In this document: positions 344-14,859 of the stretch, one piece after another | Layout: every line of letters starts with the position of its first letter | Position numbering within the stretch: the stretch's first letter is position 1 | Source of the DNA: a virus | Direction: 5' to 3' (one strand) | Virus record (IMG/VR): IMGVR_UViG_3300030328_001994 | Span: 3,774-24,084 of that record | Length of the DNA stretch: 20,311 nucleotides | Notes under the pieces: generated by a model | Told to the model about the DNA's origin: nothing | Database searches by the model: none | The model's input: the letters and a program-made list of their open reading frames with translations, nothing else | Made by a program: the position numbers and the translations under genes

Positions 344-1051
344 TTAATCAAAATTACCCATTAACCAAAACACAAGCAAGTATCTATCTCCTTCTTCAAC
401 AGGTAGACCACGATGCATGTGGCTAAAACTAGGAAACATTAAAGCTGTACCGCTGGGTAGGGGGTCTACAATTCCTTTACGGTGAAACTCAGTTCCTCCG
501 CCTTTATACCCACTAGTATTCAGGGGCACCACAACACTAATATCTGCAGACGTATCATGATGCCAAGCCCCCTGTTGCTTGTCGGCTATATTATAGTTAG
601 CCAACTGTATACTCCCAGGACGCACGGAGTATCTCTGCCATAACGCCATAAATGCAGGGTTGAGGTAGTTTAGGACTACCGACCATAAATTTTCAAATAG
701 AGGTGGGCAGTTATCGTGAAGAGTAATTTCTGGTATTTGACGTAAAAAATCTTCGTTAGAGTTAGGTTCAAAACCAAGATAATGTTCCATGTGTTTTATT
801 TCATCTAACATCATTTCACAAAATTCTTGAGTAAATAATGGCATGGTAAAAACATCTGGTAATACTTCTGTTACATATTCTTGTAGCGTAGTAGTTAGAT
901 CGTTTTGTCCTTCATGTATTTCGTATTGTTCTATATCGTTTTCGGAATCTTGCACAAGGGCGAGGGTAGTTTTATCTACCAGCCACTCCCCCTGAACGCC
1001 CAACAAAGTGTTTTTTAAGCGATAAGGCATAAGTTCTTTGATATTTGACAT
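344..1051 (-). CDS. 2-oxoglutarate/Fe(II)-dependent dioxygenase, prolyl-4-hydroxylase-like
   Basis: The 235-aa protein has a C-terminal double-stranded beta-helix core. H164-x-D166 (in WHHDTSAD) and H213 (in HMHRG) form the expected iron-binding facial triad. R223, ten residues after H213, is placed to bind the 2-oxoglutarate carboxylate. The segments SVVVPLN, GGGTEF and GTALMFPSFSHMHRG follow the usual strand order of phage P4H/PKHD-type oxygenases. The first roughly 100 residues are not recognised. Such enzymes hydroxylate protein side chains, small molecules or, in some families, bases; the substrate here is unknown. The ATG overlaps the stop of the 58-aa gene upstream as TAATG, so the two are probably translated together. 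It does not look like TET/JBP. The fold call is firm and the substrate is open. Confidence 0.88.
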   Translation of the reverse strand: MSNIKELMPYRLKNTLLGVQGEWLVDKTTLALVQDSENDIEQYEIHEGQNDLTTTLQEYVTEVLPDVFTMPLFTQEFCEMMLDEIKHMEHYLGFEPNSNEDFLRQIPEITLHDNCPPLFENLWSVVLNYLNPAFMALWQRYSVRPGSIQLANYNIADKQQGAWHHDTSADISVVVPLNTSGYKGGGTEFHRKGIVDPLPSGTALMFPSFSHMHRGLPVEEGDRYLLVFWLMGNFD

Positions 1052-1227
1052 TATTTTTTCTCCAATTTAGTTAATCTTTCTTGTTTATCTTTGCTGGGTC
1101 TATTTATAGAAAAGCCCATAATTTTACCTGAGTGTAATGCTTTACTGGCTGCGGATCTAATCTCAGGGTAATTAGACTCTACAGCGTTTTCCATTTCAAA
1201 AATCATTTTTACTACATCTTTAGTCAT
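1051..1227 (-). CDS. 58-aa hypothetical protein between two oxygenase genes
   Basis: The frame reads MTKDVVKMIF... and ends ...KLEKK. It is charged and probably helical, with no family that I recognise. Its reality is supported by both junctions. Its ATG overlaps the stop of the AlkB-like gene as ATGA (1224-1227), and its TAA overlaps the ATG of the next oxygenase as TAATG (1051-1053). This is the same junction style used throughout the window. Its position between two Fe(II) oxygenases suggests co-translation with them, but gives no direct clue to function. Confidence 0.72.
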   Translation of the reverse strand: MTKDVVKMIFEMENAVESNYPEIRSAASKALHSGKIMGFSINRPSKDKQERLTKLEKK

Positions 1228-1823
1228 AGCCCAGTTCTAAAAGTTAAATTAATTCTTTCTTCTGCTAAAGGTAAATCTTCCACAGCATGTGTAGCATTCA
1301 TTTGAGAATGACCATCAAATATAAGGACATCTCCATGTTCTAAAATGTAGTGTGTTTCTTCTTTTATGAAGTTTTCTTTAAAAAAGACATCACTAGTGTT
1401 GGTGTGGTTCTTTATGGGGTTTTGGTATTTTCTCCAAGTAAATACACGTGGTCCACCAAAACTAGTAGAAACAACAATATCATCTAAAGTAGGAACTGTG
1501 TCACTGTGGTGTGGTATACCTTTTCCGTCATCTGTGTATAAACCACAAAGACAAAAGGTAAAATTAACTTCTCTTTCAAATATTTTGGAACACATTCCTT
1601 CTACAACTTGCTTTATTGAATTTAGTTTAGGAGTCCACGGTTCAGGATTCATAAACTTACCAGCATACTCAAACGGTGCATCTCCAAATCCTCTGCTGGG
1701 TCTCCCATACACCATACCATTATTGGTTTTACGAACAACAGGTTCATCCCAATAGTCAAACTCCATTGTGAAGTGTGCTAAGGCACCCTTTAAATAGTGT
1801 ATTTTTCCTGTAGTTTTATCCAT
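1224..1823 (-). CDS. AlkB-like 2-oxoglutarate/Fe(II) dioxygenase
   Basis: The 199-aa protein matches the AlkB layout. It has a nucleotide-lid-like N-terminus, then a core with LYTDDGKGIPHHSD giving H106-x-D108. Strands STSFGGPRVFTW follow, and then GDVLIFDGHSQMNATHAV with H179 as third iron ligand. The closing RINLTFR gives R190 and R196, the paired arginines six apart that bind 2-oxoglutarate in AlkB. Known AlkB enzymes oxidatively demethylate N1-methyladenine and N3-methylcytosine, and some act on RNA or protein. In a phage it could repair alkylated DNA or protect modified genomes. The length is normal for the family. It overlaps the 69-aa membrane protein gene by 8 bases upstream and the 58-aa gene by ATGA downstream. 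Confidence 0.88.
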   Translation of the reverse strand: MDKTTGKIHYLKGALAHFTMEFDYWDEPVVRKTNNGMVYGRPSRGFGDAPFEYAGKFMNPEPWTPKLNSIKQVVEGMCSKIFEREVNFTFCLCGLYTDDGKGIPHHSDTVPTLDDIVVSTSFGGPRVFTWRKYQNPIKNHTNTSDVFFKENFIKEETHYILEHGDVLIFDGHSQMNATHAVEDLPLAEERINLTFRTGL

Positions 1824-6713: not shown

Positions 6714-7011
6714 CGTTTTTACCTTTTATAAGACGAACATTTTTAGTTCTTAACCATTCTCGTAAAAGTTTGTTCCTTTCTATTGTACTAAGGTTTGTGT
6801 CCAAAAGTAAAGTTTTATATTCCTGATTGTATAGATCATACCCAGCGTAATAATCACCATTACCTATATGATTAAACCGAACAATCTGCCATACTCTCTG
6901 TTTAGTCATGCCGTATTTAACACCAATTTCTTCGAGCGTACACTCACTATTGAGTGAAAGCATAAATATTTCGAAATATTTTTTTCTTAAATCTTTTCTT
7001 TTACCTACCAT
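6691..7011 (-). CDS. Sigma-region-4-like helix-turn-helix protein
   Basis: Residues 24-45 of this 106-aa protein (CTLEEIGVKYGMTKQRVWQI) match the helix-turn-helix of sigma-70 region 4, where the bacterial form reads LEEIGxxFGVTRERVRQI. No region 2 or other sigma domain is present. The rest is helical, basic and tyrosine-rich (GDYYAGYDLYNQEY) and is not recognised. It could bind promoter DNA as a phage regulator or bind host RNA polymerase. It has an AGGAG ribosome site and overlaps the end of polA by 11 bases, so it is expressed with the replication genes. Confidence 0.65.
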   Translation of the reverse strand: MVGKRKDLRKKYFEIFMLSLNSECTLEEIGVKYGMTKQRVWQIVRFNHIGNGDYYAGYDLYNQEYKTLLLDTNLSTIERNKLLREWLRTKNVRLIKGKNDGTKSSS

Positions 7012-8884
7012 TGTAAAACTCCTTGTAGTTCTCTACTGCTGTGCCCCAGCTGTGCCCTATTTCTGCGTCTACCTTATTAGGAACAACTAACGGAACACAG
7101 TCTGTCATAATCTGTATTATTTTTTCACACTCCTCTACACCATCCACCGATATATCTAATTCATCATGAACTTGGGTGTGAGGTAGTATGCCTTCTTTAT
7201 ACAGTTCTACCATAGCTTTCTTTGTCATGTCTGCTGCTGAGCCTTGTATTAACCTATTCATAGCTTTATATGTATACGCACGTTTAAGGTCGTCGCCATA
7301 TTTTTCTATTGCCTCTACATAAGGTAATGCTTGTTCTCTATCAAATCTTGGCTCAAATAAATTAAACCTACATCTACGACCTAATATAGTTGTGATAAAT
7401 CCACGATTACTACCCAGTCTAGAACATTGGTCTCGTAAACCCTTAATAAAAGGTACTCGTCTATGGAAGGTATCAAATAATATTTCAGCTTCTTGCGGTG
7501 AGATATCTAATTGAGATATAAGTTTATCTTTACCCATGCCATAACTTAAACCAAGATTAATAATCTTAGCTTCTTTACGACTAATGTTAGCCATGTCTGC
7601 TACAACTTGATGAAAGTCTGCGTCTTTATTACGGTAAGCATCTACTGCTTCATCTGCACCTTCTTGTTGAGTAATAGAAGAGTAGTGAACAGTTAGTCTT
7701 GGTTCTTGTTGGGAGTAATCAAAACAACCCCACTGTTTACCATCTTCTGGTACAAAAATGCTACGAATAAGAGGTCCTATATAATCATTACGTGCTGGTA
7801 CTTGCTGTAGATTAGGATTACTACTACTAAATCTACCAGTCACAGTTCCTCCACGGTCTGAGCGTAGTGGGTGTAATTCTCCATGAATTCTCCCATTAAC
7901 ACTATGTTCCAATATCATCTTATCTATAAAAGTAGTTCTAGCTTTGTTTAATTTACGTGCTCTTGCTATATTATTAGCTAACTTGTGATCGTGAGATTCT
8001 AGCCAATCTCCAGCAAAAGAAGGGGCGTTAGTTTTAGGTGTGCGTGGGTAACTTAACCCAGCCCTATCAAAAACAACAGCAACAGATTGTGCTGCCCATA
8101 AATCTGGGGCTACACCATATTCTTTTTCTATTGATTGGATAATAGATTTCTCTTCTGATAATAATTTTTTACCTACTGACTCTGCTTTATCTAAATCAAC
8201 AGGCACTCCTTTCCATCTCATGTCTAATAGTATGGGTATCAAACTAGTTTCTAACTCATAAATTTTTTCTACATTCTCTTTTATTAATCCCTCTTTTAGT
8301 ATTTGCCACAACTTTAAAGTTAGTGCTGCATCCTGCTCAGCGTACTTACCTACATACTTAGCTGGTAGTTTATACATTTCAGACTTGGGATTTATCTTAT
8401 AGGCTTTTGCTGCTTCTTCAAGTAATGTCTCATCTTTTATTTCACCTACATATCTTTGCCCTAGTTTATTAAGTGAGTACCCATATTGATTTTCATCAAC
8501 CAGAGGTGCAGCAAACATAGTGTCGTGTATTTTACCACCAACATGAACACCCATTCTTCTAAGCCACCCCATGTCATATAAAGAATTATGAAAAATCTTA
8601 TCGTTTTCGTGGCTCAATTCTTTCTTTAACCATTCAGTCACTACTCTTTTATCTAAATTACCCCCACCTACATGTTGTATTGGTAGATAGATAGCAAACT
8701 TTTCTGTCGCTATAGCTATACCAGTGACATACCCCTGCCCTTCAAAAGCCCACGACGGTCCATGAGACATGAGTAGAGGGTCATAAGTTTCTAGATCAAT
8801 AGCCACTTCTTTAAACTGACTTAGCTCAGGTAGACTTGAGGGGGGTAACCAATCGGTTTCAGGTGTGAATAAAGAAGGTTGCAT
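7001..8884 (-). CDS. polA: Family A DNA polymerase with 3'-5' exonuclease
   Basis: The 627-aa replicative polymerase lacks the 5' nuclease domain. The exonuclease motifs are D30-x-E32 (VAIDLETYDP), N100...D104 (FHNSLYDMGWL) and Y181...D185 (YAEQDAALTL). The polymerase has motif A with D389 (CFDYSQQEPRL, where most relatives have SQIELR). Motif B on the O-helix has R436, K440, L444 and Y448, and motif C is H573-D574-E575. L444 aligns with E. coli Pol I F762, a position that varies as Phe, Tyr or Leu in marine viruses and has been linked to replication style. All catalytic residues are present. It overlaps a 30-aa gene upstream by TAATG and has a GAGGG ribosome site. It would work with the AEP primase, the helicases and the probable SSB encoded to its right. 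Confidence 0.95.
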   Translation of the reverse strand: MQPSLFTPETDWLPPSSLPELSQFKEVAIDLETYDPLLMSHGPSWAFEGQGYVTGIAIATEKFAIYLPIQHVGGGNLDKRVVTEWLKKELSHENDKIFHNSLYDMGWLRRMGVHVGGKIHDTMFAAPLVDENQYGYSLNKLGQRYVGEIKDETLLEEAAKAYKINPKSEMYKLPAKYVGKYAEQDAALTLKLWQILKEGLIKENVEKIYELETSLIPILLDMRWKGVPVDLDKAESVGKKLLSEEKSIIQSIEKEYGVAPDLWAAQSVAVVFDRAGLSYPRTPKTNAPSFAGDWLESHDHKLANNIARARKLNKARTTFIDKMILEHSVNGRIHGELHPLRSDRGGTVTGRFSSSNPNLQQVPARNDYIGPLIRSIFVPEDGKQWGCFDYSQQEPRLTVHYSSITQQEGADEAVDAYRNKDADFHQVVADMANISRKEAKIINLGLSYGMGKDKLISQLDISPQEAEILFDTFHRRVPFIKGLRDQCSRLGSNRGFITTILGRRCRFNLFEPRFDREQALPYVEAIEKYGDDLKRAYTYKAMNRLIQGSAADMTKKAMVELYKEGILPHTQVHDELDISVDGVEECEKIIQIMTDCVPLVVPNKVDAEIGHSWGTAVENYKEFYNGR

Positions 8885-9310: not shown

Positions 9311-9994
9311 TTAGTCGTACCTACTGGGGCAAATATTCTGTTTGCCAAAGTAGCACCATTTACATTTAAACTGAGAAGGTCTAGCAGGGAACTCCTCAGT
9401 CGTCGTCATTTCTACAGCCCTAGCGTTTAGTCTTTCACGCTTAGCCTCTACTGTTTTTTTATCATATTGATATCTATCTAGCTTACCATGGTCCAAGTAC
9501 CACAACTCAGTTGTAATGGTGTCTAGTTCTGGTAGCCTTTTAAAAACTATTGAAGCATATAGCTCACACTGTTCTCTATGTCCTTCTTGATTACCATCGT
9601 ATCTACCTGTTTTAAAATCAATTACCCTAGCGTTCTTATCTCCCTCCACATGTACGAAAGCATCTACTTTAGCCCTACCCCATGTGTCATGATCAAACCA
9701 GCCTGTAGGTTCCCATTCGGTAGTAAAAGCCCAATCTCCTTCACAAAGTACATGCCCTTTTAAATGCATGTCCTTTAATAAATCAAAGGCTTCTTCAAAA
9801 TCCTGTAGGGCTTTAGGTATTTCATCATACCTACCTCTTATGTATTCTTCACATTCTTTGTGAATGTCTTTTCCTCTGTCCATGGCTTTATTCCCAGGTT
9901 CTTTTATTCTCTGTATGTACGCATACTCTGCTTTCTTTGGGCACCCTTCAAATGTTTTGAGTCTACTATAAGACCACTGCGGTATTGTAGGCAT
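9311..9994 (-). CDS. PD-(D/E)XK nuclease with Fe-S cysteines (RecB/Cas4-like)
   Basis: The 227-aa protein opens with WSYSRLKTFEGCPKKAEY, typical of the RecB/AddB/Cas4 nuclease family, followed by GKDIHKECEEYI with H45. The core is RAKVDAF (D111), VIDFKTG (D126 and K128) and REQCELYA (Q142, Y146). Cysteines C18, C211, C214 and C222 (the last three in KCKWCYFGKQNIC) match the four-cysteine iron-staple arrangement. It should be a single-strand-selective DNA exonuclease or endonuclease for recombination or end processing. Its start overlaps the thymidylate synthase stop by one base. There is no Cas1 or CRISPR array nearby, so a phage replication or recombination role is preferred. Confidence 0.9.
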   Translation of the reverse strand: MPTIPQWSYSRLKTFEGCPKKAEYAYIQRIKEPGNKAMDRGKDIHKECEEYIRGRYDEIPKALQDFEEAFDLLKDMHLKGHVLCEGDWAFTTEWEPTGWFDHDTWGRAKVDAFVHVEGDKNARVIDFKTGRYDGNQEGHREQCELYASIVFKRLPELDTITTELWYLDHGKLDRYQYDKKTVEAKRERLNARAVEMTTTEEFPARPSQFKCKWCYFGKQNICPSRYD

Positions 9995-11010
9995 TACTTT
10001 TCCTTATTATTAATTGATGTATTAAGCCAGTCAAACCCAGCGGTGCACCAATCAGTAGCCTCACACCTTTGAACTTCAACCAACGCCTCTTCGTACTCTC
10101 CTTTCTTATAACAGTACCAAGCGTCCTGCAGTGGGCAGGCGACGTCGGTAAAAAAATCATCCACAAACTCCATAGGTTCAAATGGTCTGCGGTCTAAAAA
10201 TGCAACTAAATCTGTATCCCAAGTATGAGAGTCAACTGACATCATAGGGTAGGGATTTATAGCTTTATTATCATAGGGATTTAAACTTTCTTTCATGCTC
10301 CAAAAATCGAATGCGTCTTGTGCTTCTAATTTGGCATGCATGTCTTCAAACACATCTACATAAGCATGAAAACTGTCACTAATTTGTGTATAAAAGCCAG
10401 TCTCCACTCCTATAGCAGAAGCAACATATTCATGAAGCATAGACATATGAACAACGTTTGCTCCAAAAGTGCCCCAAATAATATCATTTGATCTATTGCT
10501 AACAGTCATGTGTAGCATATTATCTCTTATTTTAAAATATATACAGGTATTACAAGGTACATCTACACCAGCCCTATTTAAATCCACCACAGGATCCCAC
10601 ATTTGAATAACACAACGTCTATCACTAGGATCCATTTGCAGTCTCTGGATAACTAATTCTAGTTGGTCGCCACCAAAATGTTCTCGCCACCTATAACCGT
10701 ACGCACCATGTAAAACAACACCATCGTCGCTGTACTCCTTCATGCGTTTATTGTATTTAACCACATAATCTAAATCATTACGACCACCAAGCATCCACAA
10801 ACTTTCCATAAAGTGGAAAAAAGGATTAGCTTTACGAATAGATTCAAATAGAACCCTTTCCTGTGGATTACCGAAGACAGTTGTAACAGGAACAGGAACC
10901 TCTATAACATCCCCTCCTCTACTAGTCGTAACGTCTTCTTTAAATTGATTTAATAGATCTAGCCCCTTTATAAAACCGTCATTCACATTTCTGCAATTTA
11001 TAACTAACAT
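9994..11010 (-). CDS. Thymidylate synthase homologue, possibly a dUMP/dCMP hydroxymethylase
   Basis: The 338-aa protein belongs to the ThyA superfamily. R131-R132 (SDRRCVIQMWDP) fit the phosphate-binding arginines, and C153 in VPCNTCIYF is the nucleophile. R173-S174-N175-D176 (SNRSNDIIWG) and N185 (GTFGANVVH) fit the dUMP-binding loop. SDSFHAYVD corresponds to the GDxHxY motif. Compared with bacterial ThyA, the residue after the nucleophile is Asn rather than His. The G-to-N spacing is one residue longer, and the DxHxY motif also carries an extra residue. These are features of a divergent phage branch. It could make dTMP or transfer hydroxymethyl to give 5-hydroxymethyl-dUMP or -dCMP. The neighbouring kinase-family and glycosyltransferase genes make the second reading attractive. 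The ribosome site is AGGAG. Confidence 0.85.
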   Translation of the reverse strand: MLVINCRNVNDGFIKGLDLLNQFKEDVTTSRGGDVIEVPVPVTTVFGNPQERVLFESIRKANPFFHFMESLWMLGGRNDLDYVVKYNKRMKEYSDDGVVLHGAYGYRWREHFGGDQLELVIQRLQMDPSDRRCVIQMWDPVVDLNRAGVDVPCNTCIYFKIRDNMLHMTVSNRSNDIIWGTFGANVVHMSMLHEYVASAIGVETGFYTQISDSFHAYVDVFEDMHAKLEAQDAFDFWSMKESLNPYDNKAINPYPMMSVDSHTWDTDLVAFLDRRPFEPMEFVDDFFTDVACPLQDAWYCYKKGEYEEALVEVQRCEATDWCTAGFDWLNTSINNKEK

Positions 11011-11228
11011 TACTTACTCCTACTACTGATTAAAAAATTAACAATTTTTAATTTGTCTGTTATCTCTGCCATTGTCCCGACCAGTTTGTCTACTTCTGTG
11101 ATTAAATTTGTGTGTTCGGATATAACAGTTGGGTTGGTTAATAAAATGTCTAGTGTAACATTTATTGTGTCTCTTTCTCCTTCTAACCTCTTCTTATACG
11201 CCTCTAATATTTCAGAATAATTCGCCAT
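11010..11228 (-). CDS. 72-aa helical protein, coiled-coil-like
   Basis: I do not recognise this protein. It is all helical with heptad-like spacing of hydrophobic residues (ILEAYKKRLEGERDTINVTL and VDKLVGTMAEITDKLKIVNF). It has a GGAG ribosome site, overlaps the glycosyltransferase gene by 17 bases and overlaps the thymidylate-synthase-like start by one base. Its place inside the proposed base-modification block suggests an accessory or structural role, but there is no direct evidence. Confidence 0.6.
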   Translation of the reverse strand: MANYSEILEAYKKRLEGERDTINVTLDILLTNPTVISEHTNLITEVDKLVGTMAEITDKLKIVNFLISSRSK

Positions 11229-11985
11229 TTGCTGCTCCTTGTTTTAACGCTTTTTTCCACATAACTTTTACATCTTTACGGATAGCTCCACCCCAAGCTG
11301 TCTTAGTTTCTTTCTCTACTACTGTCACTACTTCTGGGTGTAGCTTAGCCAATAACTCAGCCCCCTCTGATTGCACATCTAAGGTACGCCACTCACTACA
11401 GCCACCAGCTGCATTAGAACTACCTTGTCCTTGTGCATAGTAATAACTTATCTTACTAGGATATCCCTTTTTAAGAAGTTGTAAATTAATATCAAAATCT
11501 TCCATAACTCTAGTTCTTGCTAGTTCTATGCCATCAAATTTATCTAAGTTGTAGGCTAGTAATCTCATGTACCTAGTAGTTTCTACTGAGAGAGCTTCTA
11601 CTCTATTATTACCTTCCCTAGCACTCACGCCACAATGAGCATAGTCATCAAGCCACACATCTAACAACCCAAACAACGCAGGGTATTCCTCTGGTTCTAG
11701 GTATCTTAAATGCCAATCGTTAGTAGCTTTACGAATATAAAAACGCAAGTCGTCATCTAGCATAACTATTTTATTGTCATCGGTGTTGTTGTGGATAAAC
11801 TTACGCTTAGTAGCTATATCATGAACCGTGTTATCACACACCATAATTTTACAATCATATTTAGAGTATAAATCTTTTTCATGCTCGTCTACAACTAATG
11901 TGACTTCTTTGCGTAATTCTTCAGGAAAGAAAGACAAGGTCACTTGGCTGTCTGCTCTTCCTCTTGTGGGAATAAATATTCTCAT
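11212..11985 (-). CDS. GT-A glycosyltransferase, resembling TET-associated glycosyltransferase (TAGT)
   Basis: The 257-aa protein starts MRIFIPTRGRADSQVTLSFF, a nucleotide-sugar-binding first strand of GT-A enzymes. It continues with VTLVVDEHE and KIVMLDDDLRF, where D77-D79 supply the metal-binding DxD-type motif. EDFDINLQLLKKGYP (residues 162-176) supplies the ED acceptor-side motif. The order PxRGRA, MLDDDL and EDxDxxLxLLxxG resembles the TAGT family described next to phage TET/JBP enzymes, which glycosylates hydroxymethyl-pyrimidines in DNA. No TET/JBP is adjacent here. The donor sugar and acceptor are inferred, not seen. Its ATG overlaps the stop of the HMUDK-family gene as ATGA, tying it tightly to that enzyme. 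Confidence 0.75.
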   Translation of the reverse strand: MRIFIPTRGRADSQVTLSFFPEELRKEVTLVVDEHEKDLYSKYDCKIMVCDNTVHDIATKRKFIHNNTDDNKIVMLDDDLRFYIRKATNDWHLRYLEPEEYPALFGLLDVWLDDYAHCGVSAREGNNRVEALSVETTRYMRLLAYNLDKFDGIELARTRVMEDFDINLQLLKKGYPSKISYYYAQGQGSSNAAGGCSEWRTLDVQSEGAELLAKLHPEVVTVVEKETKTAWGGAIRKDVKVMWKKALKQGAANGELF

Positions 11986-12812
11986 TTATTTACCTTATAT
12001 TTTGCACGTGGTCTGCCTTCTCCCAAACGTGTACGTTCATATTTATCAAACTCGCAAAGGCAGTGTTCGATATCTCTCATTTCTAGTGGTAGCATATGTC
12101 CTTGTAAATAATCAGGAGAGCAATCTAATAACTCTTTCATCTCACTATTTAGTTGTTCTTTTTTAATTGTTTTATTTAAATCTCTATGATGTATTCTATT
12201 CAAGCCACGCTGAGCTCCAGGTCCAGGATTAGCCCACGTCATAATATCTTTAGCATTCTCTAACCATTTAGTGTGTCGTAAGTCTGTTACTACCTCGTAA
12301 GCCATAAAACCACTAAAACCAGCATGCTTTAAATACCCTCGCCATGTTTCTTCTAATGAGTCTTCTATCATAGGTGGGTGGTTATTGTATAACGGTGTTA
12401 GTATTTTATCTATAGTTTGTTCTACTTTAGTGCCACCTAAAGTGCCTGTCAACATGTACGCACCAGTATAAACTTTTTCTTTTCTGTTCATTCTACCTTG
12501 CATTATAGCTTTTAAACGTTCAGGATTCCAGTGCTCAGGAAAACCCAACTCTTCTAAAGTGTCTGGCCAATTGATTTGTCTAGCCATAGCCATAGCAAAA
12601 GGTAAATTAGGATGGTCAGCATAAGGCTCTCGCCAGTTAACTCGTATCCATTCTGTAACTCTATCTAGTTCACGGTACACGTTACAAAAACTATACTCAG
12701 TTAATATAGCATCACTAGTCCACGGATAAGCTACACCGTTTTGCCGACGTAAGTATATGATATGACGTTCATTTAGATAATTAAAAAACTTTTGTACTTC
12801 TTCATGATTCAT
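11982..12812 (-). CDS. 5-hmdU DNA kinase helical-domain family protein (aGPT-pyrophosphorylase relative)
   Basis: The 276-aa protein carries the full set of conserved stretches of the family often annotated 'nucleotide kinase domain-containing' (HMUDK_hel). These are PWTSDAIL (residues 30-37), FCNVYRELDRVTEW (42-55), VYTGAYML (114-121), WANPGPGAQRGLNRI (193-207) and CLCEFDKYERTRLGEGRPR (251-269). In thymidine-hypermodifying phages such as SP10, phiW-14 and ViI, this domain is part of enzymes acting on 5-hydroxymethyl-uracil in DNA. Here it stands alone, with no Walker A P-loop in the protein, so kinase activity would need a partner or the domain has another DNA-base role. Overlaps with both neighbours (ATGA at each end) place it in the modification block. 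Confidence 0.85.
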   Translation of the reverse strand: MNHEEVQKFFNYLNERHIIYLRRQNGVAYPWTSDAILTEYSFCNVYRELDRVTEWIRVNWREPYADHPNLPFAMAMARQINWPDTLEELGFPEHWNPERLKAIMQGRMNRKEKVYTGAYMLTGTLGGTKVEQTIDKILTPLYNNHPPMIEDSLEETWRGYLKHAGFSGFMAYEVVTDLRHTKWLENAKDIMTWANPGPGAQRGLNRIHHRDLNKTIKKEQLNSEMKELLDCSPDYLQGHMLPLEMRDIEHCLCEFDKYERTRLGEGRPRAKYKVNK

Positions 12813-13306
12813 GCTACTTCCTCTTTAGTCCACCACCATGGTTTAGGTGTGCACTTATTCCACTCAGCGTAATGCTTTTCGTTAATTAAATAATTACGAT
12901 AGGCTTTAACTGGGTTAGGGTCTTTATACTGGTCTGGCATAGCTTGGGCTGGTGGATAAAACTTATACTTAGGTATCTGAGTAGGAACCTCTGCTAGTTT
13001 ATCATTTAATTTACGATAACTAGCGTGTACTTTACCATACCGTCTATTGTACTCATGGGATAAAGCTACAAAATGCATATAAAGCCATTTATAATTCATA
13101 ACGCTTTCCCTAGCCCAGATAGTACAAGGGTGGTTAAGGTGAGCAGTTTTATAAAGACCCAATAGGTCGCAGTACTCATCACCGTTATAAACACGGTGCA
13201 CCGTAGATAACATTTGAGCACTTTCTAAAGGCATCTTAACTACTAGTTTATCTGGTAGGTAGATTGCAGCTTTAGCTGGATCTTTATCGACATAAAATAT
13301 ATTCAT
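12809..13306 (-). CDS. 165-aa conserved phage protein of unknown function
   Basis: The protein begins MNIFYVDKDPAKAAIYLPDK followed by LVVKMPLESAQMLSTVHRVY, then HLNHPCTIWARESVMNYKWL and EYNRRYGKVHASYRKL, and ends in a proline/tryptophan-rich tail (TPKPWWWTKEEVA). I have seen this pattern in many phage hypothetical proteins, but know no established function. Conserved K, H, D, W, R and the NHPC motif suggest an enzyme, perhaps acting on nucleic acid. An AGGAGATAAAAATAA ribosome site precedes the ATG. The stop overlaps the HMUDK-family ATG as ATGA. It is the first gene of the proposed base-modification block, just after a hairpin. Confidence 0.8.
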   Translation of the reverse strand: MNIFYVDKDPAKAAIYLPDKLVVKMPLESAQMLSTVHRVYNGDEYCDLLGLYKTAHLNHPCTIWARESVMNYKWLYMHFVALSHEYNRRYGKVHASYRKLNDKLAEVPTQIPKYKFYPPAQAMPDQYKDPNPVKAYRNYLINEKHYAEWNKCTPKPWWWTKEEVA

Positions 13307-13359: not shown

Positions 13360-14859
13360 TTAAATCATAACTTGAAACTCTTTTCTAGTTCTCCCTTGAA
13401 TAATGTGTAGGTTTTGTTTAGTTCTTGTTACACCAACATAGAACGCTCGACACTCGTTGTCTGGGCTTTTGTATAATTCATCAAAAGTTCTAGTAGCCAT
13501 GTCTGTTAAAAGCACAACATTTTCACATTCTCCACCTTTAGTAGCGTGTATAGTGTTCAGCTTAATTCTTGAAGAATTTACTTTTTGGTGCTTACGCAAG
13601 CAAGATATAATATACTCCCTTTGGGAATCCCCTATTAAATCAAACACAGCGTGCCAAATACCATCAACCATAAGACCATAGCTTTCCTTTAATTGATTAA
13701 TGTCTAGTAATGTGTCTGGGTCGACCTGTTTAAGAGTTTTAAAGCCAGTCTTAACTCCTTTACCTGCTTTCATGTAACCGTATATCTTCTTTACTCTTAT
13801 GGCTTCTATACTTTCTCCTTTACGCAAAGACTCCCAATCCAGAATAGCTTTCAATAAATTTTCTGTTACAGAAGGTTTATTATTCTTAGTATAGAAGAAC
13901 CCACAAGTCCTGAGATGTTGTTCTACATTATTTAATAGGTAATTGTTTCTTGCTAAAAACAGCCATTCTCCTTCGCTATAGTCTATATGCTCATAGCTAT
14001 TATGGTAGGTAACGCTTCCTTCATCCTCTCTAGGTATCCATGTTTTATGTCTTCTCTTTTTAATACGCTTAACAATATTAAGAGCTACATCATGAACCTT
14101 TTTAGGTACTCTGTAACTTTGTTCCAGATATATTTCTTTACCGTCTAAATTTATAAAATGATCTGTATCTGCACCTGCCCATTTATAAATAGCTTGGTCA
14201 TCGTCCCCTGCTATGTAAACGTGTTCTAAACCTTGAGCCAATTTATGCACACACTTCCATTGTAAAGCAGATAAGTCTTGAGCTTCGTCTACAATTAAAG
14301 CCTTTAAAGGTGGGCGAGTATCAAAGTCTATAAACCCAGAAAGCATATCAGTGTAGTCTTTTAGAAAGTTTGTTTGTTTAAAATTATTGTAGCTACTACA
14401 GAACCAGTCAAAATGAATCCAACTCAAATCACCCTGAGCCACGTTCCAAGCTTCTCGGTAAGTTTTACAGGTATTACGTGCCATGTTTTCTAGGAATAAC
14501 ATATTGTCCCCTAAACTATTTAACGCCATTAAATTTTCACCGTCCCAAGCTGAGTTAATACGTTCCCCAACCAATTGACTAAATGTTCGTAAGTCTTTAC
14601 GGTCTAGTACATCCGACTTAGTAAGTCCTTGCCAAAAATAACAAAGCGAATGAATCGTTCGGAAATATATTAATTGATCTGGTTCATAGTCAAACTTAGC
14701 AACCGCACGAGTTAGTGCTTCTGTTGCAGCTTTCTTAGTAAACGCAAGGTATGCTAATTCATATGGTTGTATATCTTCTTGGAATAAATCTTCAACTTTA
14801 TTAAGCAGGAAAGTAGTTTTCCCAGTTCCAGGTGGTCCAAGAACTATGTTCCAACTCAC
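13360..14859 (-). CDS. UvrD/Rep-like superfamily 1 DNA helicase
   Basis: All SF1A motifs are present in this 499-aa protein: Walker A LGPPGTGKTT (residues 7-16), motif Ia LAFTKKAATEAL, Walker B IVDEAQD (189-195), motif III GDDDQAIYKWAGA (218-230), motif IV LEQSYRVP (245-252), motif V TIHATKGGE and motif VI FYVGVTRTKQNL. It is an ATP-driven 3'-5' type DNA helicase, shorter than cellular UvrD because its 1B/2B insertions are reduced, as in phage versions. The start is GTG, overlapping the primase stop as GTGA (14856-14859). Direct coupling to the primase suggests a function at the phage replication fork or at initiation. Confidence 0.93.
   Translation of the reverse strand: MSWNIVLGPPGTGKTTFLLNKVEDLFQEDIQPYELAYLAFTKKAATEALTRAVAKFDYEPDQLIYFRTIHSLCYFWQGLTKSDVLDRKDLRTFSQLVGERINSAWDGENLMALNSLGDNMLFLENMARNTCKTYREAWNVAQGDLSWIHFDWFCSSYNNFKQTNFLKDYTDMLSGFIDFDTRPPLKALIVDEAQDLSALQWKCVHKLAQGLEHVYIAGDDDQAIYKWAGADTDHFINLDGKEIYLEQSYRVPKKVHDVALNIVKRIKKRRHKTWIPREDEGSVTYHNSYEHIDYSEGEWLFLARNNYLLNNVEQHLRTCGFFYTKNNKPSVTENLLKAILDWESLRKGESIEAIRVKKIYGYMKAGKGVKTGFKTLKQVDPDTLLDINQLKESYGLMVDGIWHAVFDLIGDSQREYIISCLRKHQKVNSSRIKLNTIHATKGGECENVVLLTDMATRTFDELYKSPDNECRAFYVGVTRTKQNLHIIQGRTRKEFQVMI

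Follow-up and report, generated by a model that had tools for sequence, protein, structure and literature searches.

What does the helical domain of a 5-hydroxymethyldeoxyuridine (5-hmdU) DNA kinase do when it is encoded by itself, next to a glycosyltransferase? This question is raised by a gene cluster of the virus record IMGVR_UViG_3300030328_001994, in which such a helical-domain protein (HMUDK_hel) is encoded together with a TAGT-family glycosyltransferase and a ThyA homologue. The window, the whole stretch of DNA analysed here (20,311 nucleotides), comprises bases 3774-24084 of this 24,084-bp linear IMG/VR virus record; since the record is a 24-kb linear fragment, the genome of the phage is incomplete. 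We propose, with a probability of roughly 0.58, that the three genes direct kinase-independent glycosylation of 5-hydroxymethyluracil (5-hmU) in DNA, the flipped base being presented by HMUDK_hel. The confidence given to the individual steps reflects our judgement and not computed values.

The locus encodes a ThyA homologue, a TAGT glycosyltransferase and an HMUDK_hel protein

Five open reading frames are located on the minus strand between 13306 and 9994, in the order Pyr_excise-like protein, HMUDK_hel, TAGT, a 72-amino-acid (aa) protein and ThyA:

12809..13306, minus strand: Pyr_excise-like protein, 165 aa (PF03013, 8e-9; phrog_624, 7.8e-56)
11982..12812, minus strand: HMUDK_hel protein, 276 aa, helical domain alone (PF18723, 1.8e-46)
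11212..11985, minus strand: TAGT-family glycosyltransferase, 257 aa, DDD motif at 77-79 (PF20691, 1e-18; phrog_842, 5.7e-47)
11010..11228, minus strand: small protein, 72 aa, phrog_1811 (PHROG match, 1.1e-7)
9994..11010, minus strand: ThyA-superfamily protein, 338 aa, predicted deoxyuridine monophosphate (dUMP) 5-hydroxymethylase (PF00303, 1.1e-20)

An earlier description made without database searches (the sequence-only reading) had reported five overlapping genes, and the overlaps are as it described them: 4 bases between the Pyr_excise-like gene and HMUDK_hel (12809-12812), 4 bases between the HMUDK_hel stop and the TAGT start (11982-11985), 17 bases between TAGT and the 72-aa gene (11212-11228) and a single base (11010) between the 72-aa gene and ThyA. 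The PD-(D/E)XK exonuclease gene that follows overlaps ThyA by 1 base as well (9994). The same reading recognised a combination of ThyA, TAGT and HMUDK_hel without TET, and Pfam bears this out, with all three matches above gathering scores and no Tet_JBP match in the lineage of the window. The HMUDK_hel match reaches 159 bits against a cut-off of 25 and spans residues 6-264 of 276. TAGT scores 68.5 bits against 27.5 and carries the DDD motif, which places it in the family; D77-D79, D163, GGC194-196 and R200 are kept across the TAGT family. The 165-aa protein, which had been called an unknown, proved to match Pyr_excise and phrog_624. NCBIfam was unhelpful for TAGT, HMUDK_hel and the 165-aa protein, and searches of PDB sequences with the HMUDK_hel and TAGT profiles returned nothing meaningful.

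The ThyA homologue is a predicted dUMP hydroxymethylase

The ThyA homologue has the catalytic and binding residues Cys153 and Glu69 and the phosphate-binding pair Arg131-Arg132, which assigns it to the Thymidylat_synt/pyrimidine hydroxymethylase superfamily. The determinant for deoxycytidine monophosphate (dCMP) versus dUMP in T4 dCMP hydroxymethylase is Asp179 (PMC6400193); at the position of this cytosine-selecting residue the window protein carries the uracil-type Asn185. The protein is 48% identical to its YuA/M6-like homologues and shows no difference from M6 gp58 in any of the motifs compared, and the DNA of phage M6 holds 5hmdU-derived bases (PMC6449724). Among solved structures the top match is the CMP hydroxymethylase MilA (1.4e-22), with thymidylate synthases at 2e-13 or weaker. 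We infer from the nearest homologues, M6 gp58 and MilA, that a hydroxymethyl rather than a methyl group is transferred. The protein is thus a predicted dUMP hydroxymethylase, and it is likely that the cassette makes 5-hydroxymethyldeoxyuridine monophosphate (5-hmdUMP). The ThyA proteins of LuckyBarnes (L125:9601-11154; L numbers denote the genomes and contigs surveyed) and Montesquieu (L127:6992-8542), both of ~517 aa, have a long C-terminal extension.

A T4-like cytosine pathway, in which ThyA would yield 5-hmdCMP and the glycosyltransferase would glucosylate 5-hydroxymethylcytosine (hmC), has some grounds: MilA acts on CMP, PHROGs label TAGT 'beta-glucosyl-HMC-alpha-glucosyltransferase', and a divergent TAGT is paired with a TET/JBP protein in phage DLP_6. 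Nevertheless, the base-selecting position is Asn185 and not Asp, the enzymes nearest to ThyA are M6/YuA-like, and HMUDK_hel belongs to thymidine pathways, so that we regard this route as highly unlikely. The DLP_6 match near the divergent TAGT is the only Tet_JBP match among the 23 TAGT records searched. Because DLP_6 has TET and is without HMUDK_hel, TAGT appears to occur in two settings, one with TET and one with ThyA and HMUDK_hel. In DLP_6 (L126, 12001-16291) the TET/JBP match falls in a stretch annotated 'SNF2 DNA repair protein', and a nucleotidyltransferase-type gene lies between it and TAGT.

HMUDK_hel has a predicted DNA-glycosylase-like fold

Pfam detected no P-loop kinase domain in the 276-aa HMUDK_hel protein; with the helical domain only, 5-hmdU kinase activity of this protein was rejected. 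An AF2 model built from a 57-sequence alignment had a mean predicted local distance difference test (pLDDT) score of 94.9. Among solved folds, PaMx11 gp46, which is a 5-phosphomethyldeoxyuridine (5-PmdU) glycinyltransferase, comes nearest (VIA Z 11.3, 216 residues, 3.9 Å), followed by 8-oxoguanine glycosylases, Mag1, Mag2 and endonuclease III (VIA Z 8-10.4 over 160-210 residues); the fold match is remote, every Foldseek E-value being >0.001. In the model, HMUDK_hel has a helix-hairpin-helix (HhH-GPD) DNA-glycosylase-like overall fold. The nearest viral models include the SP10 5-hmdU DNA kinase and PhiW-14, and in Goe26 the kinase family PF18748 and PF18723 share one 652-aa frame. Together with the glycosylase-like fold matches, SP10 and Goe26 suggest that the helical domain, within a polypeptide known as a 5-hmdU DNA kinase, has its own fold for handling DNA bases.

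The invariant residues of HMUDK_hel are R16, D34, R47, D50, R78, K129, D177, D189, GPG197-199, R202, CE253-254, DKY256-258 and R260, and they are identical beside kinases and beside glycosyltransferases. On the basis of the model we predict a protein that flips or presents bases of 5-hmdU-containing DNA, and consider the chances that it serves as presenter for TAGT to be about even.

HMUDK_hel could itself be a second transferase that links some small molecule to the base, with TAGT decorating the product or supplying a leaving group. Its closest solved fold is that of a glycinyltransferase, its invariant charged residues are dense (C253-E254 and D256-K257-Y258 included), and besides ThyA it is the only cassette gene that is independent of the partner. 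M6-like phages, however, encode a separate amino-acid transferase (PF18724) near HMUDK_hel, which would leave HMUDK_hel unneeded for that step, and in SP10-like phages the 5-hmdU DNA kinase polypeptide includes HMUDK_hel. We therefore find a transferase role distinctly unlikely.

TAGT and kinase genes largely alternate as partners of HMUDK_hel

A search for the kinase families PF18748, PF18751 and PF18747 and for the amino acid:DNA transferase PF18724 gave no match in the lineage genomes tested, which extend up to 63.6 kb; as controls, PF18748, PF18724 and PF18751 were matched in M6-like phages or Koji. Elsewhere, a PF18748 kinase lies near HMUDK_hel in M6, MP1412, Sonora, FP1, RHph_TM26, LysYB1, Goe26 and contigs L102 and L103, PaMx11 has a weak PF18748 match near HMUDK_hel, and Koji has a PF18751 kinase. 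TAGT adjoins HMUDK_hel in the lineage of the window, in LuckyBarnes and in L104, L231, L284, L287, L289, L290, L292, L306 and L313. All three genes recur in unrelated phages, namely LuckyBarnes, a cultured Brevibacterium phage with the order ThyA-TAGT-TAGT-HMUDK_hel as gp41, gp40, gp39 and gp38, L104/L105, L290, L284, L287, L289, L306 and L313. The L284-L293 set was recovered with TAGT alone as query. Two contig scans yielded 51 TAGT loci and 74 HMUDK_hel loci; they used the narrower alignments A5 and A6, the diverse alignments A3 and A4 having no stretch conserved enough.

When the carriers were grouped into 32 clusters at 60% identity, kinase and TAGT avoided each other, with 1 cluster holding both (p 0.011), and the amino-acid transferase always occurred with a kinase and never with TAGT (p 0.0002). 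The HMUDK_hel tree demands at least 9 switches between kinase and glycosyltransferase, and, given its starred branches, the TAGT label must have changed at least 10 times and the kinase label at least 7 times.

Several points weigh against the kinase-independent reading. L293 pairs TAGT with a kinase-like gene, and strict exclusion between the two was rejected on this account. Neither PF18748 nor PF18747 was matched in the HMUDK_hel carriers phiW-14 and nACB2, so an unrecognised kinase is possible. The Fisher tests behind the above p values treat related clusters as independent, with labels that are partly hand-coded, and many branches of the HMUDK_hel tree are weak. Dependence of TAGT on HMUDK_hel is not absolute, since L001 has TAGT-ThyA-HD without HMUDK_hel. 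The window comes from a fragment of only 24 kb. Finally, HMUDK_hel, given its many invariant charged residues, may be a catalyst itself.

The kinase-like gene of L293 and the carriers missed by the known kinase families would fit an M6-type pathway, in which an unrecognised, non-homologous kinase of phage or host acts with HMUDK_hel to phosphorylate 5-hmU, and TAGT glycosylates the phosphorylated product or just some of the bases; the fusion or adjacency of HMUDK_hel with kinases in SP10-like and M6-like phages fits it too. Relatives of ~60 kb, however, lack matches to the three kinase families and the amino-acid transferase, this transferase keeps company with kinases only, and in the window the TAGT start overlaps the HMUDK_hel stop. 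An M6-type pathway at this locus is therefore unlikely in our view.

Other enzymes were also observed near HMUDK_hel. L107-L110 carry HMUDK_hel with GT-B-type glycosyltransferases and SPASM radical S-adenosylmethionine (SAM) genes. SPASM radical SAM genes accompany HMUDK_hel and ThyA in L108:6446-12107, L104:5260-10400, L290, L292 and L293, often with GT-B-type glycosyltransferases, and L108 also carries a sugar-nucleotide epimerase-type gene. In the pelagiphage-like L112 (9138-10906), which is without TAGT, a class I SAM methyltransferase gene is located directly upstream of HMUDK_hel, and its product could methylate 5-hmU. HMUDK_hel-ThyA operons of L218 (596-4796) and L235 (6004-9582) contain weak sulfotransferase matches, making a sulfated thymine or sugar possible; L218 also has an adenosine 5'-phosphosulfate (APS) kinase and a PIG-L-type deacetylase. 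HMUDK_hel homologues were also seen in Patescibacteria and Alphaproteobacteria contigs (L314-L352), nearly all without a nearby ThyA, and beside ThyA in the long Hyphomicrobium/Hyphomonadaceae contigs L296, L297, L298 and L308, possibly as prophage or as a cellular modification system.

The three genes are retained together in the lineage of the window

The genes that flank the cassette are:

13360..14859, minus strand: UvrD helicase, bordering the cassette on the left
9311..9994, minus strand: PD-(D/E)XK exonuclease, neighbour from the replication module (PF12705, 1.5e-19)
7001..8884, minus strand: family A DNA polymerase (PolA), bordering the cassette on the right

The closest named relatives of PolA are 023Pt_psg01 (54% identity), the Pelagibacter phages HTVC023P and HTVC027P (49%) and DSL-LC04 (49%), and by this sequence comparison the phage is of a marine, HTVC023P-related lineage whose relatives infect SAR11 bacteria. 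HMUDK_hel, TAGT and ThyA are kept together in ~60 related contigs and are present in all lineage contigs that reach far enough, with the exception of L112, which is without TAGT. Gene order is mostly preserved as primase-UvrD-(Pyr_excise)-HMUDK_hel-TAGT-(72 aa)-ThyA-exonuclease-PolA. Among lineage relatives dN/dS is 0.014-0.107 for TAGT, 0.07-0.14 for HMUDK_hel and, where measurable, 0.07-0.12 for ThyA. This co-retention and the low dN/dS show that the association of the three genes exceeds chance.

In HTVC023P, 023Pt_psg01 and DSL-LC04, UvrD and PolA flank a site empty of cassette genes, with the same primase-UvrD-PolA order. HMUDK_hel and ThyA gave no match across the whole genomes of these three phages, and related carriers did match. 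Because the empty-site relatives are without both genes genome-wide, parts of the cassette look as if they were gained or lost together.

These relatives bear on a further explanation, ordinary nucleotide metabolism, in which a plain thymidylate synthase would stand beside a TAGT acting on protein or cell-surface sugars. PHROGs label the ThyA family 'thymidylate synthase', and in the relatives tested this ThyA is the single Thymidylat_synt match. Against this, a hydroxymethylase is the better match for ThyA, the three genes co-occur in unrelated phages, and the cassette-free relatives have no ThyA at all, indicating that the lineage does not need it to supply thymidine monophosphate (dTMP). 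We give this explanation next to no credence, and HMUDK_hel-TAGT-ThyA is very probably a DNA modification cassette.

The other two genes differ in this respect. The 72-aa protein evolves fast, is poorly conserved and is present in only a subset of relatives (phrog_1811 is its sole good match); L008 and L010, which are among the closest, yielded no copy of it. The Pyr_excise gene was not seen adjoining the cassette in L054, L084, L111 and L115, and its family, phrog_624, is widespread, with ~600 phage records of many kinds. Being missing from the cassette in several relatives, both genes look accessory; for the 72-aa protein this is probable. The five-gene block put forward by the sequence-only reading as a unit was accordingly rejected, the 72-aa and 165-aa genes being dispensable across relatives, and of the five genes, HMUDK_hel, TAGT and ThyA stay together across the lineage and recur in unrelated phages, while the five-gene set is not constant.

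In another part of the window (344-1823) we noticed two 2-oxoglutarate (2OG)-Fe(II) oxygenase genes, one AlkB-like (PF13532, 4e-17), which by Pfam are not TET/JBP. The AlkB-like gene adjoins UvrD or lies inside the cassette in relatives L069, L076 and L112. The same gene run includes a DUF932/TIGR03299 phage-plasmid protein (4672-5700, 220 bits).

A proposed pathway to glycosylated 5-hydroxymethyluracil

In the pathway that we propose, residues and homology suggest that the ThyA homologue would first hydroxymethylate dUMP to 5-hmdUMP. After phosphorylation, this nucleotide would be built into the DNA by the phage PolA, replacing some or all of the thymine. HMUDK_hel, which is without a kinase domain, would then bind the 5-hmU-containing DNA and flip or present the base, and TAGT would use a nucleotide sugar to glycosylate the oxygen of the hydroxymethyl group. 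The product would be glycosyl-hmU, either base J or something related to it, and would likely shield the phage genome against nucleases of the host. The pathway is predicted from protein families, residues, the modelled fold, synteny, selection, recurrence in unrelated phages and the lack of matches to known kinase, amino-acid transferase and TET families. That a sugar is placed on 5-hmU in DNA is probable; the sequence-only reading had suggested such glycosylation, with which the families are consistent, and what has changed is the role of HMUDK_hel, in view of the missing kinase domain.

If kinase-independent glycosylation is correct, an abundant marine phage lineage would carry sugar-coated thymine made with neither the TET/JBP of base J nor the two enzymes, kinase and amino-acid transferase, of the known thymidine pathway. 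The helical domain of the 5-hmdU DNA kinase would gain a role, which would explain why its residues are retained beside different enzymes, and further, possibly undescribed thymine modifications would be indicated. LuckyBarnes would then be the cultured phage for a test. More tentatively, HMUDK_hel might be a general module that presents 5-hmU in DNA to exchangeable partners: a kinase, TAGT or GT-B glycosyltransferases, a methyltransferase (L112) and sulfotransferases (L218, L235). Phages might in that case make base-J-like glycosyl-hmU, and probably also methylated and sulfated thymines that are so far undescribed, by a ThyA route without TET/JBP.

Comparison with known systems

According to the available text of PMC9599517 (2022), thymidylate synthase and aG/PT-PPlase1, a name under which this HMUDK_hel family appears in other annotations, occur in clades V, VIII and IX of the HTVC023P-type pelagiphages, with a putative beta-glucosyl-HMC-alpha-glucosyltransferase nearby in some. 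The window belongs to this lineage and has a gene set of this kind, and the co-occurrence of ThyA, HMUDK_hel and TAGT, though real, had thus already been published for the lineage. As far as that text goes, the gene set is filed under the M6 pathway, whereas we read it as kinase-independent; what goes beyond it is the missing kinase, the fold, the wider recurrence and the partner swap, and TAGT with HMUDK_hel may have been mentioned earlier elsewhere.

The M6/YuA-like phages (Mesyanzhinovviridae), with 5-(2-aminoethyl)deoxyuridine, resemble the window in ThyA (48% identical) and HMUDK_hel (42%), both near PolA. They differ in having a 5-hmdU kinase beside HMUDK_hel, an amino-acid transferase and genes annotated as threonine dehydratase and DNA repair photolyase; in the window TAGT is the neighbour of HMUDK_hel, and kinase and amino-acid transferase are missing. 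The 5-hmdU DNA kinase of the Bacillus phage SP10 type shares the fold and family of the helical domain, which is all that the window protein has. PaMx11 gp46 (PDB 8z2n) and the HhH-GPD DNA glycosylases are like HMUDK_hel in overall fold, at ~10% identity and in a different Pfam family.

TAGT was reportedly linked with TET/JBP by Iyer et al. in 2013. Such systems have the TAGT family in common with the window, where ThyA would supply the hydroxymethyl group ahead of replication. T4 hmC glucosylation likewise proceeds from a hydroxymethylase to a glycosyltransferase, and the window departs from it in a uracil-type ThyA and an extra protein, HMUDK_hel.

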